Below are positions 14,013 to 62,362 of a stretch of 64,000 bases of DNA, in pieces. The notes under the pieces were generated by a model, which saw only the letters and a list, made by a program, of their open reading frames with translations, did not search any database and was not told the origin of the DNA. Within the stretch, counting starts at the first letter, position 1, and each line of letters begins with the position of its first letter. Made by a program: the position numbers and the translations under genes. This DNA is from a bacterium. Lineage in GTDB: Bacteria > Actinomycetota > Acidimicrobiia > Spongiisociales > Spongiisociaceae. The stretch spans positions 62,001 to 126,000 of the forward strand of contig JAPPGU010000036.1 of NCBI GenBank assembly GCA_028821265.1. Reading direction: 5' to 3'.

Positions 14013-15209
14013 TCAACCGGACCGTCCGCCACTCCATTCGGCGCGGGGCAACCGCTTCTCCTTATCCACGAACGGCAGGGCGTCAACGGTCGCCGGGTGA
14101 GGAGCTCCGTTATGGTCGATCAACGAGACCGTCTTGCCGAGCCAGTCGCCGCCCGGCAGAGGCCGGTCGAAGCGCACGTAGCCGACTCCTGCCTCCAGCG
14201 AGGGCGACCAGGTGCCGATCGTGATATGCCCGACCGGGCCGTTCTCGAGGTGCACCTGCATCCCGGCGTCCGGTGCTGCGGTAGCGCAGACCAGGCCGAA
14301 CAGGAGCTGGCTGCGATCGACTCTCGCCAGCGCGGAGCGTCCGATGAAGTCCCCCTTGTCGAGTGCAACAAAGTTCCCGAGGCCGGCGCCGTACGGGGTC
14401 AGGTCCGGCTCGATATCCGTGCCGTTGTCCAGGATGCCGGCCTCGATGCGCCGTATGCCCATCGATGAAGACGAGCTGAACTCCATGCCGAAGGGCTCAC
14501 CGCAGGCGAGCAGGTATTCCCAGAGGGCGTCATGATCCGTCGCCTCCGGACCACTGTTGCAGTAGATCTCGATCCCCGCCTCGCCCGTCCATCCGGTCCG
14601 GGACACCCACAGTGTCTGTCCACCGATATCGAAGGATCCGGCGTGGAAGTACCTGAAGTCGGTCGATAATCCACCGCCGATCGCCGCGTCCAGCACGTCG
14701 AGCGACTTGGGTCCCTGAATCTGGAGGACTCTCGAATCCGGATCGGAGACTTCGGCATCGAGCCCCATGGCGTGCGCCGTGAGCCAACCCTCGAATTCCC
14801 CGTTCGCCTTCACGTACCAGAAGCGATCCGGCGCGAGGCGCATGATCACACCGTCCATCAGAACGGTGCCGTCCTCATTGCAGGCGATTCCGTACCGAGC
14901 CCGACCCACTGCGAGCGTTCCGACCCTGCAGGTGAGGACCCTCTCCAGCATCCTGGCGGCATCCGGGCCGATGATCTCGAGGGGCTTTTCGGGGACGTCG
15001 TACAGCATCACCCCGTTCCGCAACTTCCAGTACTGGGGAACGGGGTCCTCGTCAGGGTACGCCTTGATGGGATACAGGCGATCGCAGTACAGGCCGAAGA
15101 CGGTCTGATCCGTCACGTACCGGTCGGCAAAGGGCGATCGGCCGAGTCGGAACGAACTCAACCGGACCGAGCCGAACAACTCGACGTAGAAGTGTCTGTC
15201 CCCGGTCAT
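14013..15209 (-). CDS. GcvT-family aminomethyltransferase-like protein (DmdA-like)
   Basis: This 398-residue protein belongs to the folate-binding GcvT family: L-E-I-I-G-P-D-A-A-R near residues 78-87 and V-L-Q-I-Q-G-P-K-S in the middle are family hallmarks, and the C-terminal barrel domain is present. The opening (R-x-S-P-F-A-D-R, then Y-W-K-L-R-N-G-V-M-L-Y-D-V) looks more like dimethylsulfoniopropionate demethylase DmdA and related demethylases than glycine-cleavage T-protein. No gcvH or gcvP is nearby, which also argues against glycine cleavage. The substrate is unproven. GAGGTG precedes the ATG. It lies just downstream of nothing recognisable and upstream of the two tRNAs on the same strand. 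Confidence 0.8.
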   Translation of the reverse strand: MTGDRHFYVELFGSVRLSSFRLGRSPFADRYVTDQTVFGLYCDRLYPIKAYPDEDPVPQYWKLRNGVMLYDVPEKPLEIIGPDAARMLERVLTCRVGTLAVGRARYGIACNEDGTVLMDGVIMRLAPDRFWYVKANGEFEGWLTAHAMGLDAEVSDPDSRVLQIQGPKSLDVLDAAIGGGLSTDFRYFHAGSFDIGGQTLWVSRTGWTGEAGIEIYCNSGPEATDHDALWEYLLACGEPFGMEFSSSSSMGIRRIEAGILDNGTDIEPDLTPYGAGLGNFVALDKGDFIGRSALARVDRSQLLFGLVCATAAPDAGMQVHLENGPVGHITIGTWSPSLEAGVGYVRFDRPLPGGDWLGKTVSLIDHNGAPHPATVDALPFVDKEKRLPRAEWSGGRSG

Positions 15210-18790: not shown

Positions 18791-19062
18791 GCGCCCAGCC
18801 TACCGGACGGCCACAACGCTGTCCATGGTCAAGCCCTTTGCCTGCCCTCAGGAAGTACCAGACGATGCCAAGCTGCGGCGTCGCTGCTCTGCCAGAACCG
18901 CGTTACGGTCGTGGCGCCGGGGGCGGTGGGGGTTCGGCGACCAGTCCCAACCGCATGAGGTCGGGAGCTACCCGACCAGTCCGACGGGACACCCTCTCAT
19001 GCTTCCATCCAGCCCCGTCCTGCTAGGCTTTCAATGGTTGGGTAACGGAGGGGACCGGACGG

Positions 19063-21090
19063 ATGACTCTCACCGCAGACAGGGCGGTCACTCAGAAGCT
19101 CAGCCTGCTGGATGAACTGATTCTCACACTACTCAACGACGAGAGTGGCTACTTCCGGCAGGTTCCAGGGTGGGATTTGAGTTGTGCCGTCATCGGCGCC
19201 GTGCTGGGAGAGCTGTCCCTCCTGTCTCGCATCGACACCGATATGGACTCTTTGATCCTTCTGGATCGAAATGAAACGGGCGACCCTGCGCTCGATCCCA
19301 TCCTCGAGAAGATCGCCTCGGAGCCGGTTCAACGAGATGCCCAGTACTGGATCGAACGGCTCGCCCCGCGCGCAGACTCGATTGTCGACTTAACCCTTGA
19401 CCGGCTGGTCGACCTGGAGATCCTCCGACACCACGACGGCGACTTCTGGTCGCTGGCGCCGGGGCTTTGGAAGCAGGACGAGTACGCCAAACCCGGCGAA
19501 GGCACTGCCGCGGACTACGTCAAGACGCGTATCAGCAGGGCGATCTTCGCAAATGAGATTCCGGACCCCAGAGACATCATCATAATCTGCCTTATCAATA
19601 CATGTGACGTCCTACGCTTTATTTTCGAACTCGATGAGGAGTCGGAAAGGCGTGTCGAGTTCATCTGCAAGATGGATTTGATAGGCAGGTCCATCGCCGC
19701 GGCGGTTAGCCATAACCTGGCCGGGTCTTTGTACAGGCCCTCCGCCTTCGCGAAGCCGATTCCAACTGTCTCGCTTCGTCATCTGCTGCGCAGCCGGCAC
19801 GCTCGCGGAGGCAACATTCCCGCGTTCTTCGCGGAGCTCGCGAAGGAATACGGGCCTGTGTTTCAGATCCGTCCGCCCTTTGCCAACCCGATCATCTTTC
19901 TGGCGGGACCCGAGATGAACCACTGGGCACATCGACATGGGCGCATGTATCTGCGGGCCCGAGACTATCTGGAGGACTTCGAGAAGTTGTACGGAGGATC
20001 GGGGATATTGCCTACCTTGGACGGCGCCGATCATTTCCGGTATCGCAAGTCCATGCAGCCTGCCTATTCGCGCGCCAGGCTGGAGGCTCGACTGGATGAG
20101 GTCTACTCCAACGCCCGCAAGTACATGGCGGATTGGTCTGTAGGAGAGGAACTTCCCGGCAAGACGATGTGCAGGCGCCTGGTCAACGCGACACTGTCAC
20201 CGCTGTCCGTCAGTGTCGACACCCAGGACCTCGTAGATGATCTGCACAAGTTCAAGGAACGGGCCCTCCAGACTCATGTCGTCAGGAACCTGCCCAAGTT
20301 CATGCTGCGCACCCCTGGAATGAAGCGGCGGGCAAAGCGGATCGGAGAGGTGGTGGAACGAGTTCAGAATGTCCACACGCCCGCCCAGCGGGCTGGGTGC
20401 CCTCGGGATCTTGCCGATGACCTGCTGAGCATGCACACGAGTGATCGGCAGTTCCTCCCCGAGTCGAACCTGCCGTTCGTGCTCTCGGCGCCGCTGATCG
20501 CAAGCATGTACGTGGGTGATCAGCTTGGATTCATCATCTACGCGATGCTGTCACAGCCCGAGTTCTACGAGAAGATCCGCGACGAGGCCGATGCCCTGTT
20601 CGCTAACCGGAACCCGGATCGTGACGAGATCACAGGACCGGGGATCGACGTCACCCGCCGGTTCATCATGGAGTGCATGCGGCTCTACCCGATCGTGCCG
20701 GCATCGTATCGAAACGTGATGAACACCTGCGCGGTCGACGGATACGAGTTGCCGCAGGGGGCTCGGGTCCTGATCGCCCAGACCGCCACACACTTCATGG
20801 AGGACGTCTTCCCCGATCCCTTCTCGTTCGACATCGACCGCTACCTGCCCCCGCGCAAGGAGCATCTGGGGCCGTCATATGCGCCGTACGGTCTGGGTAC
20901 CCACACCTGTCTGGGATCCCGCTGGACGTCATTGCACCTTGCGATCCATGTGCTGATCCTCGTGCATCATTTCACCCTCGAGATCGCTCCCGCCAACTAC
21001 AAGCTGAAGATCAGCGCGTTCCCGTCGGCGTCGGTGAACAAGAAGCTGAAGTTTGTCGTCACCGAGCGGAGGCGCGAACTGCCCGTCTAA
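19063..21090 (+). CDS. GPP34 (GOLPH3-like) - cytochrome P450 fusion protein
   Basis: This 675-residue protein has two parts. Residues about 12-215 match the GPP34/GOLPH3 fold: L-D-E-L-I-L-T-L-L-N-D-E-S-G, a GAVLGELSLLSRI helix, GDPALDPILEKI and the RLVDLEILR helix; in eukaryotes this fold binds phosphatidylinositol-4-phosphate at Golgi membranes. Residues about 232-675 are a cytochrome P450: ExxR is E537-R540, and the haem loop YGLGTHTC has C616, with Tyr in place of the usual Phe. The I-helix region (about 477-495) reads V-G-D-Q-L-G rather than AGxDT, so oxygen activation may be unusual. GGAGGGG precedes the ATG. It converges on a Rieske oxygenase gene. The substrate is unknown; membrane targeting by GPP34 is inferred. 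Confidence 0.85.
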   Translation: MTLTADRAVTQKLSLLDELILTLLNDESGYFRQVPGWDLSCAVIGAVLGELSLLSRIDTDMDSLILLDRNETGDPALDPILEKIASEPVQRDAQYWIERLAPRADSIVDLTLDRLVDLEILRHHDGDFWSLAPGLWKQDEYAKPGEGTAADYVKTRISRAIFANEIPDPRDIIIICLINTCDVLRFIFELDEESERRVEFICKMDLIGRSIAAAVSHNLAGSLYRPSAFAKPIPTVSLRHLLRSRHARGGNIPAFFAELAKEYGPVFQIRPPFANPIIFLAGPEMNHWAHRHGRMYLRARDYLEDFEKLYGGSGILPTLDGADHFRYRKSMQPAYSRARLEARLDEVYSNARKYMADWSVGEELPGKTMCRRLVNATLSPLSVSVDTQDLVDDLHKFKERALQTHVVRNLPKFMLRTPGMKRRAKRIGEVVERVQNVHTPAQRAGCPRDLADDLLSMHTSDRQFLPESNLPFVLSAPLIASMYVGDQLGFIIYAMLSQPEFYEKIRDEADALFANRNPDRDEITGPGIDVTRRFIMECMRLYPIVPASYRNVMNTCAVDGYELPQGARVLIAQTATHFMEDVFPDPFSFDIDRYLPPRKEHLGPSYAPYGLGTHTCLGSRWTSLHLAIHVLILVHHFTLEIAPANYKLKISAFPSASVNKKLKFVVTERRRELPV

Positions 21091-21113: not shown

Positions 21114-22163
21114 CTAGCGGGTCTCCTGATCGGCCGGGTCGGGATAGAACTGGGCGCAATAGCGCCGGAATGGCATGATCTCGCCGTCGGAGCGACAGAG
21201 GCGCGGGCGGGACCGGTATTGCTTGCGGCTCCAGATGATCTCATCCTGCTGGACATCCCGGTACTGCTGGGACGAGATGAACCGGTTCATGATTGGGGCT
21301 CGCCACTTCACCGGTAGGAACCCCAGGCCCGCGATCCACCGCCCCGGCTTGCGTATCTCCCGCACCTGCGAAACCAGCGACAGGTCGATGAGCGAGCCGT
21401 CGACAGGCGTCGCCAGCACCCACAGGCGCAGATCCATCCCGATCGAACGCTCGCGGATCTGCACGAACGAGTAGCCCAATCCGTAGATCCGGGTGCGGGC
21501 GGCCACGTCGAAGGTAAGGGTGATGATCCCCGCAGTCGTCCGGGTGCGCCTGAAGTCGAAGTCGCTCTCCAGGAGCGGCCCGTCCACGGACACCCGCCCT
21601 ACGCGGTCCACGCTGTCGTAGCCGTGGACGTAGCGCAGGTGGCCCACGTCGACCGAGTTCTCCGTCGTCTCTTGGGGATGGCCGGGAAACCGGAGGGTCC
21701 TGATCTTGAGACCGGTCCAGCCGGCCTGATCCGGTTCATCCTCTGGCAGATTCCATTGCGGCGCCCGTCCCCTGATCCCCCACCAGGCGAAGATCAGGCC
21801 CGCGATCTCCTGCGTCTCGAAGACGCGTAACCTCGCGGTGGTGGGCGGCGGCGAATAGGGGGTGGCCACGCACTGGCCGGTGGCGTCGAACTCGTAGCCA
21901 TGGAACGGGCAGACCAGCCGCCCCTCACAGATGCGACCTCCTGCGGTCGGTCCCAGATCGGCGCCCAGATGCGGGCAGTAGGCGCCGGCGACGCACACGG
22001 TGCCGTTCTCGTCGCTCCAGGCGACGATGTTCTCTCCCATCCATGTCTTTTCGATGATCCCGGCTTCCAGCAGTGCCCTACGGCTCGTGACGAAGTACCA
22101 GCCCTCGGGAAAGGGAGAAGGCAGCGGGGCATTCTCGAGCACCACCCTACGCCGGGTAGACAT
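21114..22163 (-). CDS. Rieske-type non-haem iron oxygenase
   Basis: This 349-residue oxygenase alpha-subunit-like protein has a Rieske [2Fe-2S] centre from C63/H65 (CPHLG) and C85/H88 (CPFHG). The mononuclear iron site is read in N169, D172, H175 and H180 (ENSVDVGH then VHG). The arrangement resembles the single-component KshA/DAF-36/Neverland group acting on sterols and other hydrophobic rings, but the substrate is not proven. Reductase and ferredoxin genes are absent here. AGGAAGG precedes the ATG. The gene ends 24 bases from the end of the P450 fusion, facing it. Confidence 0.88.
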   Translation of the reverse strand: MSTRRRVVLENAPLPSPFPEGWYFVTSRRALLEAGIIEKTWMGENIVAWSDENGTVCVAGAYCPHLGADLGPTAGGRICEGRLVCPFHGYEFDATGQCVATPYSPPPTTARLRVFETQEIAGLIFAWWGIRGRAPQWNLPEDEPDQAGWTGLKIRTLRFPGHPQETTENSVDVGHLRYVHGYDSVDRVGRVSVDGPLLESDFDFRRTRTTAGIITLTFDVAARTRIYGLGYSFVQIRERSIGMDLRLWVLATPVDGSLIDLSLVSQVREIRKPGRWIAGLGFLPVKWRAPIMNRFISSQQYRDVQQDEIIWSRKQYRSRPRLCRSDGEIMPFRRYCAQFYPDPADQETR

Positions 22164-61003: not shown

Positions 61004-62362
61004 CTAATCGCCTGCCCTGGTAGGACGGCCCAGTACCCGGTCCCATTCCTCGAGCCGGTCGGCAACGCCCGCCTCCCTGCCCTGGCGGGTGGGTCGATAG
61101 AGGATCCTCCCCTCCATCTGCTCCGGAAGGTGAGGCTGCTGAACGAGATGTCCCGGTCCCGTGTGGGGATCAACATATCCCGCCGGCGTGCCGTCTACCT
61201 GCGACGACACCAGCCGCCCGCCGGTGGAGCGGAGATGGGCGGGAACGGTGGCGGCGGGTGTCTCCTCGACCGCCCGGCGGGTCGCGCCCATCGATCTCTT
61301 CACCGAGTCGGACTTGGGAGCGGTGGCCAGGTAGATCGCGGCCTGCGACAGGTTGTAGGCCGCCTCGGGCAGGCCGACCATCGCCAGGGCCTGAGCGGCG
61401 GCCACCGCCTGGACCAGAGCGTCCGGGTCGGCCATGCCCACGTCCTCGGAGGCGAAGATGACCATCCGTCGTGCCACGAACTCCGGATCCTCGCCTGCCG
61501 ACAGCATGGTGTGGAGCCAGTAGAGGGCGGCGTCGGGGTCGGAGCCCCGCATCGACTTTATGAAGGCCGAGATGACGTCGTAGTGCTGGTCGCCCTTCTT
61601 GTCGTAGCGGATGATGCGGCGCTGGAGGGCCTCCTCCACATCCCGGTAGGTGATGGTGGTCCGTCCGCCGCCGCCGGCCACGATGGCGGCCAGTTCCAAG
61701 ACGTTGAGCGATAGCCGGGCGTCCCCTCCCGCCCGACGGGCCAGGGCCTCGGCGGCCGACGGGTCGATCGCCATCGCTGCGGAACCCAGCCCCCTCTCGC
61801 GGTCGGTCAGGGCCCGCTCGAGAAGCTCGACCACTTCGGCAGCGGACAGCGGAACCAGACGGAGCAGGGTGCATCGGCTGATCAGGGGGGAGTTGACCTC
61901 GAAGAACGGGTTCTCGGTGGTAGCGCCGACCAGTATGACGGTGCCGTTCTCGACCCCGGGCAGCAGGGCGTCCTGCTGGGCCTTGTTGAAGCGATGGATC
62001 TCGTCCAGGAAGAGCACCGTTCGAGTCCCTTGCTCCCCGAGCCGGCGCTCCGCTCCCTCCAGGACCCGGCGGACGTCACGCACCCCGTGAGCGGACGCGG
62101 TCAGCTGCTCGAATACCGCGTCGCTCTCGGAGGCCATGAGCCGGGCCAGGGTCGTCTTACCGGTACCCGGCGGTCCGAACAGCAGGACCGACACCAGGCG
62201 GCCGGATTCGACCATGGCGCGGAATGCGGCGCCCTTCCCGAGAAGATCGGGCTGGCCCACCACCTCTTGCAAGGACCGGGGACGCATGCGGTCGGCCAGC
62301 GGGGCCACCCGGCGCCGGCGTCTCTCCCGGCCGGCGGAGAACAGGTCGGGTTCGGACGGCAT
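61004..62362 (-). CDS. rarA: Replication-associated recombination ATPase RarA
   Basis: This 452-residue AAA+ protein acts at stalled replication forks. Walker A is G-P-P-G-T-G-K-T-T, Walker B is L-F-L-D-E-I-H-R-F, and sensor-1 is G-A-T-T-E-N-P. The MgsA C-terminal tetramerisation domain, with Y-D-V-I-S-A-F-I-K-S-M-R-G-S-D-P-D-A-A and S-E-D-V-G-M-A, is intact. It lies between aspS and alaS on the same strand. Confidence 0.95.
   Translation of the reverse strand: MPSEPDLFSAGRERRRRRVAPLADRMRPRSLQEVVGQPDLLGKGAAFRAMVESGRLVSVLLFGPPGTGKTTLARLMASESDAVFEQLTASAHGVRDVRRVLEGAERRLGEQGTRTVLFLDEIHRFNKAQQDALLPGVENGTVILVGATTENPFFEVNSPLISRCTLLRLVPLSAAEVVELLERALTDRERGLGSAAMAIDPSAAEALARRAGGDARLSLNVLELAAIVAGGGGRTTITYRDVEEALQRRIIRYDKKGDQHYDVISAFIKSMRGSDPDAALYWLHTMLSAGEDPEFVARRMVIFASEDVGMADPDALVQAVAAAQALAMVGLPEAAYNLSQAAIYLATAPKSDSVKRSMGATRRAVEETPAATVPAHLRSTGGRLVSSQVDGTPAGYVDPHTGPGHLVQQPHLPEQMEGRILYRPTRQGREAGVADRLEEWDRVLGRPTRAGD

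Follow-up and report, generated by a model that had tools for sequence, protein, structure and literature searches.

In the 64,000-nucleotide stretch of DNA analysed here (the window; positions 62,001 to 126,000 of contig JAPPGU010000036.1, assembly GCA_028821265.1, from an acidimicrobiian of the family Spongiisociaceae), one gene joins a GPP34/GOLPH3 domain to a cytochrome P450. It is an open ATG frame of 675 aa on the forward strand (19063..21090), with a Shine-Dalgarno-like GGAGGGG (19047..19053) 9 nt upstream of the ATG. The GPP34 domain covers residues 15-215 (19105..19707) and is followed by a linker of residues 216-240 (19708..19782) and by the P450 domain, residues 241-661 (19783..21045). 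A Rieske oxygenase with a KshA_C domain lies convergently downstream on the opposite strand (21114..22163). A scan of named genomes gave 264 relatives, the best 80 of which were used for conservation, neighbourhoods and phyla; together with the window locus they make up the 81 loci counted below, where G stands for a genome, L for a locus and G000 for the window's genome. These 80 members, hereafter the sponge clade, are 62-87% identical to the protein along its full length or the greater part of it.

The pairing of the two domains in one protein, proposed in the preliminary description, is borne out by domain searches and by predicted structure. Pfam assigned the first half to GPP34 (PF05719; 100.8 bits against a cut-off of 29.1, E 1.4e-28) and the second to p450 (PF00067; 128.1 bits, above its cut-off, E 5.5e-37). 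Moreover, a sequence profile of bacterial GPP34 matches GOLPH3 3kn1 by sequence (E 1.1e-11), and the AlphaFold model of the isolated GPP34 half (pLDDT 84.7) has GOLPH3 and Vps74 as its only significant Foldseek matches in the PDB (GOLPH3 9qpq, E 5.2e-9, TM 0.70). The alignment-based model of the whole fusion (mean pLDDT 78.8) retrieves P450s, the first being the sterol 14-demethylase CYP51 of Methylococcus capsulatus (E 2.5e-16, TM by target 0.80). The fusion does not come from a missed stop or an assembly artefact, since 79 of the 80 best named loci (all but L056, which has an internal stop) and nine genomes of the family (G000-G004, G006-G008 and G010) have an undisrupted frame. These nine genomes comprise eight of the ten genomes of the window's genus, the window's own included, and one genome of a sister genus, all free of internal stops. 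The linker stays within 24-26 residues in all members, and the divergence of the two halves is correlated (r = 0.74).

The ExxR motif E537-R540 (20671..20682) and the haem-ligand cysteine C616, within the loop APYGLGTHTCLG (20881..20916), lie where they had been placed previously, and both are invariant in the 80 members. The I-helix is different. Alignment with relatives puts the motif A480-S-M-Y483-V-G485-D486 (20500..20520), one residue shorter, in the place of AGxDT; Y483, G485 and D486 are invariant, and the threonine and the acid are gone from their usual places. The canonical monooxygenase signature (A/G)Gx(D/E)T is thus absent from all 80 members, which read AxxYxGD without exception and ASxYxGD in 79 cases. 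Solo P450 relatives and a second fusion clade, 33-34% identical, keep AGxDT with small variations. The acid-alcohol pair of this helix normally supplies protons for oxygen activation (PMC9112060), and its loss suggests, as far as sequence can tell, that the sponge clade has an altered chemistry, with proton delivery rewired or another reaction catalysed. Oxygen activation might be rewired through Y483 and D486, or it might be unused, as in isomerisation, dehydration or peroxide-driven chemistry. A whole P450 clade lacking the pair offers a natural test of rewired proton delivery in P450s.

Within one CYP family, an identity of about 40% is expected. The fusion shares 18-19% with the CYP51-like proteins of the sterol cluster described below and 20% with the best structure, so that identity does not place it in CYP51. 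Bacterial CYP51, such as the CYP51-ferredoxin of M. capsulatus, and other P450s share with it the P450 fold, the ExxR motif and the haem cysteine, and include its best structural match; the fusion differs from them by an identity of about 20%, by having neither a ferredoxin domain nor the acid-alcohol pair, and by its N-terminal GPP34.

The preliminary description had further supposed that the GPP34 module could recruit the P450 to a membrane in the manner of GOLPH3, through a phosphoinositide. In GOLPH3, W81, R90, R171 and R174 hold phosphatidylinositol 4-phosphate (PI4P), and a hairpin formed by residues 190-201 enters the membrane (PMC13408441). Profile alignment maps R90, R171 and R174 to I44, D105 and V108 of the fusion, where the 80 members almost invariably have V/I/A, E/D and I/V; three of the four ligands are replaced in every one of them. 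W81 falls on P35, an ambiguous assignment since an invariant tryptophan, W37, stands two residues off. On this residue mapping we reject a PI4P pocket and place the fusion outside the PI4P-binding GOLPH3 subgroup. The hairpin fares otherwise. A beta-hairpin of residues 121-131 (19423..19455) is predicted in both AlphaFold models, that of the GPP34 half placing its strands at 121-124 and 128-131, and its hydrophobic or aromatic tip is kept (F128 in 77, W129 in 79 and L131 in 77 of the 80). Membrane recruitment thus stays plausible, and the phosphoinositide route to it is not supported: given the conserved tip and the lost ligands, the fusion may plausibly dock through its GPP34 hairpin and without a phosphoinositide. 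GOLPH3 and Vps74 (PF05719) resemble the fusion in fold, profile match and hydrophobic hairpin; they differ in their PI4P ligands R90, R171 and R174, the fusion being moreover bacterial and linked to an enzyme. A solo GPP34 protein of G000 (C16:42292-42903; L022), 39% identical to the N-terminal half of the fusion, keeps an arginine at the position equivalent to R174.

The same residues allow the GPP34 half to be read as a protein-protein scaffold or a regulator that anchors nothing to a membrane, which would be compatible with any P450 substrate. The loss of the PI4P ligands would fit this, as would the observation that GOLPH3 itself binds enzyme tails through its acidic face (PMC12494035). 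Conservation of the hydrophobic hairpin speaks for the membrane instead, and a P450 surrounded by sterol-type partners would gain from docking there; we therefore regard a scaffold as possible but somewhat unlikely.

Those partners hint at the function. The Rieske protein of the window (Pfam Rieske 58.3 and KshA_C 80.2 bits) has 3-ketosteroid 9alpha-hydroxylases as its closest solved chains, and a Rieske/KshA_C oxygenase adjoins the fusion in 57 of the 81 loci. An FAD-dependent, amine-oxidase-like protein (Amino_oxidase) is found near it in 51 loci, an RND transporter with MMPL and sterol-sensing domains in 37, and a sterol 24-C-methyltransferase (Sterol_MT_C) in 34. Of the 81 loci, 76 have one or more of these four families within 3 kb and 57 have two or more within 5 kb; a typical order in Chloroflexota is FAD, Rieske, fusion, methyltransferase, RND. 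In Nitrospirota, a biosynthetic sterol cluster is found no more than about 15 kb from the fusion; at L136 this cluster comprises SdmB (303 bits), SdmA (415 bits), ERG4/ERG24, a CYP51-like P450 and an oxidosqualene cyclase (728 bits); an ERG24 homologue is within 10 kb of the fusion in nine loci. Physical linkage to sterol genes is therefore found across lineages.

Sponge symbionts are known to carry steroid gene clusters (CSGs) of the type ERG24-CYP51-LSS, for which horizontal gene transfer has been reported (Kelly 2022, PMC9531527). These occur in the same kind of hosts and phyla as the fusion, and the two are found in physical linkage in Nitrospirota metagenome-assembled genomes (MAGs). The passages of that work consulted here make no mention of a GPP34–P450 gene, and the cyclase is missing from most of the fusion genomes that we searched. 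The sterol methyltransferases of sponge bacteria assayed by Brown 2023 (PMC10070321) are of the same enzyme class as the homologues beside the fusion; the text of that work covers methyltransferases and has no P450, Rieske protein, transporter or Golgi. In the window's own family, every genome with the fusion has a sterol methyltransferase, as does only G005 among the four without it. G000 has two, one of which, on contig C62, is 73.5% identical to the type that neighbours the fusion. The oxidosqualene cyclase model found no match in G000 or in the other twelve genomes of the family searched. Since the window's genus has methyltransferases and no detected cyclase, its organism probably modifies sterols that are taken up and not its own.

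Considering these data together, we give a probability of about 0.6 to the reading that the fusion is a membrane-docked, sterol-tailoring P450 of sponge-associated bacteria with an altered active site. The hydrophobic hairpin, and no phosphoinositide pocket, would attach the GPP34 half to the membrane's inner face and so keep the active site of the P450 in the region into which sterols partition. This enzyme would modify sterols or steroid intermediates together with the sterol-type Rieske oxygenase, the FAD oxidoreductase, the sterol 24-C-methyltransferase and the RND transporter of sterols or other hydrophobic molecules. In lineages with an oxidosqualene-cyclase cluster it might tailor their own sterols; in those without, such as the window's genus, the sterols might be those of the sponge or of fellow symbionts.

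The strongest rival is aerobic steroid catabolism, because the Rieske partner resembles KshA and because sponges hold steroid degraders (PMC5790920). Symbionts would then feed on host sterols, with rings opened by the Rieske protein as a KshA-type oxygenase and with side chains or rings oxidised by the P450. The best matches of the Rieske neighbour are indeed KshA_C and KshA structures, divergent KshA clusters have been reported in sponges along with the degraders (PMC5790920), some loci hold an SDR, an ADH and a second P450, and three Acidimicrobiia fusion genomes have HsaC-like proteins at 280-286 bits. Against this, none of the 40 genomes searched reaches the model cut-off for an HsaC-type extradiol dioxygenase, matches outside those three genomes do not exceed 101 bits, and the neighbouring sterol methyltransferase, a biosynthetic activity, as well as the Nitrospirota cyclase cluster point to biosynthesis or tailoring. 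A catabolic role thus appears unlikely to us.

The P450 might also act on another hydrophobic molecule, such as a hopanoid, carotenoid, fatty acid or terpenoid, with the sterol genes brought near by co-transfer only. Low-identity sequence matches to terpenoid, retinoid and fatty-acid P450s would fit this, the RND partner resembles HpnN too, and the Sterol_MT_C match is missing in eight of the 36 fusion genomes searched, although gaps in MAGs might account for this. Co-transfer alone would hardly keep sterol-type partners recurring in independent phyla with differing gene order, and we hold a non-sterol substrate to be slightly less probable still than catabolism.

The sterol-tailoring reading nevertheless has several points against it, to which the eight genomes without a methyltransferase match and the three with stronger HsaC-like steroid-catabolism matches belong. 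The sterol substrate rests on gene neighbourhood, and the match of the model to CYP51 falls within the general P450 fold. None of the four partner families is present in five of the 81 loci, and the window fusion adjoins just the Rieske gene among them. FAD and RND homologues lie together on another contig in most members of the genus; G000 itself has no close RND homologue, and its FAD gene is a contig-end fragment only, in line with a genome completeness of 84.6%.

The probable sponge setting of these sterol-modification loci across phyla is, with the missing I-helix pair, the main point absent from the preliminary description. The best 80 loci carry NCBI labels of at least eight phyla (Actinomycetota, Chloroflexota, Nitrospirota, Gemmatimonadota, Latescibacterota, Pseudomonadota, Verrucomicrobiota and Binatota), and all are titled as MAGs. 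In the window's class, 25 genomes out of 395, belonging to six of 184 genera, contain the fusion, as do about 22 of 301 sampled Chloroflexota genomes. Well-supported branches of the tree group Pseudomonadota with Nitrospirota (99), Gemmatimonadota with Latescibacterota (100) and Pseudomonadota with Chloroflexota (97), a pattern that inter-lineage transfer would produce, subject to the caveat of errors in MAG binning. No plasmid record spans most of the fusion; the plasmid matches listed are P450s at 24-29% identity. Six loci (L047, L050, L062, L076, L087 and L094) stem from the records MPNQ, MPMZ, MPMM, MPNN and MPNO, listed as symbionts of Aplysina aerophoba (Slaby et al., PMC5649159), and the bin prefixes RHO, COS, IRC and APA match sponges of Robbins et al. 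(PMC8163846), which suggests a sponge origin for those bins.

Whether sponges or their symbionts produce unusual sponge sterols determines the interpretation of 24-isopropylcholestane and similar fossil steranes. Such symbionts are known to have sterol methyltransferases (PMC10070321), but most of the enzymes that work with these are not known; the fusion family, found in at least eight phyla, is a conserved candidate for this role and can be assayed. It would also give a bacterial GPP34 domain a clear metabolic setting, the first in the literature looked at. Searches of the literature for GPP34 with P450 or sponge symbionts returned off-topic papers only, a weak sign of novelty since subscription journals were thinly covered. 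In a bolder version, which we consider speculative and rather improbable, a horizontally spread, membrane-docked P450 family of sponge symbionts, having abandoned the usual pair for O2 activation in favour of non-monooxygenase or peroxide-driven sterol chemistry, would make sponge-type sterols from host sterols together with sterol methyltransferases, and bacterial GPP34 would serve lipid enzymes in general as a membrane dock.

Some members of the wider family deserve mention. The MAG RHO2_bin_38 has the fusion twice, in identical copies on separate contigs (L041 and L042); either the gene was duplicated recently or the second copy stems from the assembly. A fast-evolving Acidimicrobiia member (L152:8222-10285; G355), 50% identical and on a long tree branch, has NSMY instead of ASMY and GQ instead of GD in the I-helix. 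The second GPP34–P450 clade is represented by L141:1272-3314, L142:9284-11290 and L143:9002-11035, the last split by a stop; each is followed by an ORF of about 395 aa, an acyltransferase (Acyl_transf_3) in both that were scanned (L141 and L142), and two genomes with this clade also hold the first. A survey of GPP34 in Actinomycetota gave 53 matches in 30 genomes, with five other frames longer than 500 aa; these are open-frame lengths, which exceed true gene lengths in G+C-rich DNA. For the two longest, a nearby ORF was scanned in each case and has no Pfam match, not even to GPP34, and the wrong frames were probably taken.

The oxidosqualene cyclase of L136 (13375-17001, +) bears an FAD monooxygenase-like region of UbiH type, possibly a squalene epoxidase, at about residues 85-390, ahead of the cyclase domain; this apparent epoxidase-cyclase fusion is also seen as ORFs of 1143-1223 aa in G061, G052, G064 and G044. 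Elsewhere in the window (14013-15209, reverse strand), a GCV_T-type folate-binding protein has sub-cut-off matches to the models of trimethylamine N-oxide (TMAO) demethylase (C-terminal half) and dimethylsulfoniopropionate (DMSP) demethylase.
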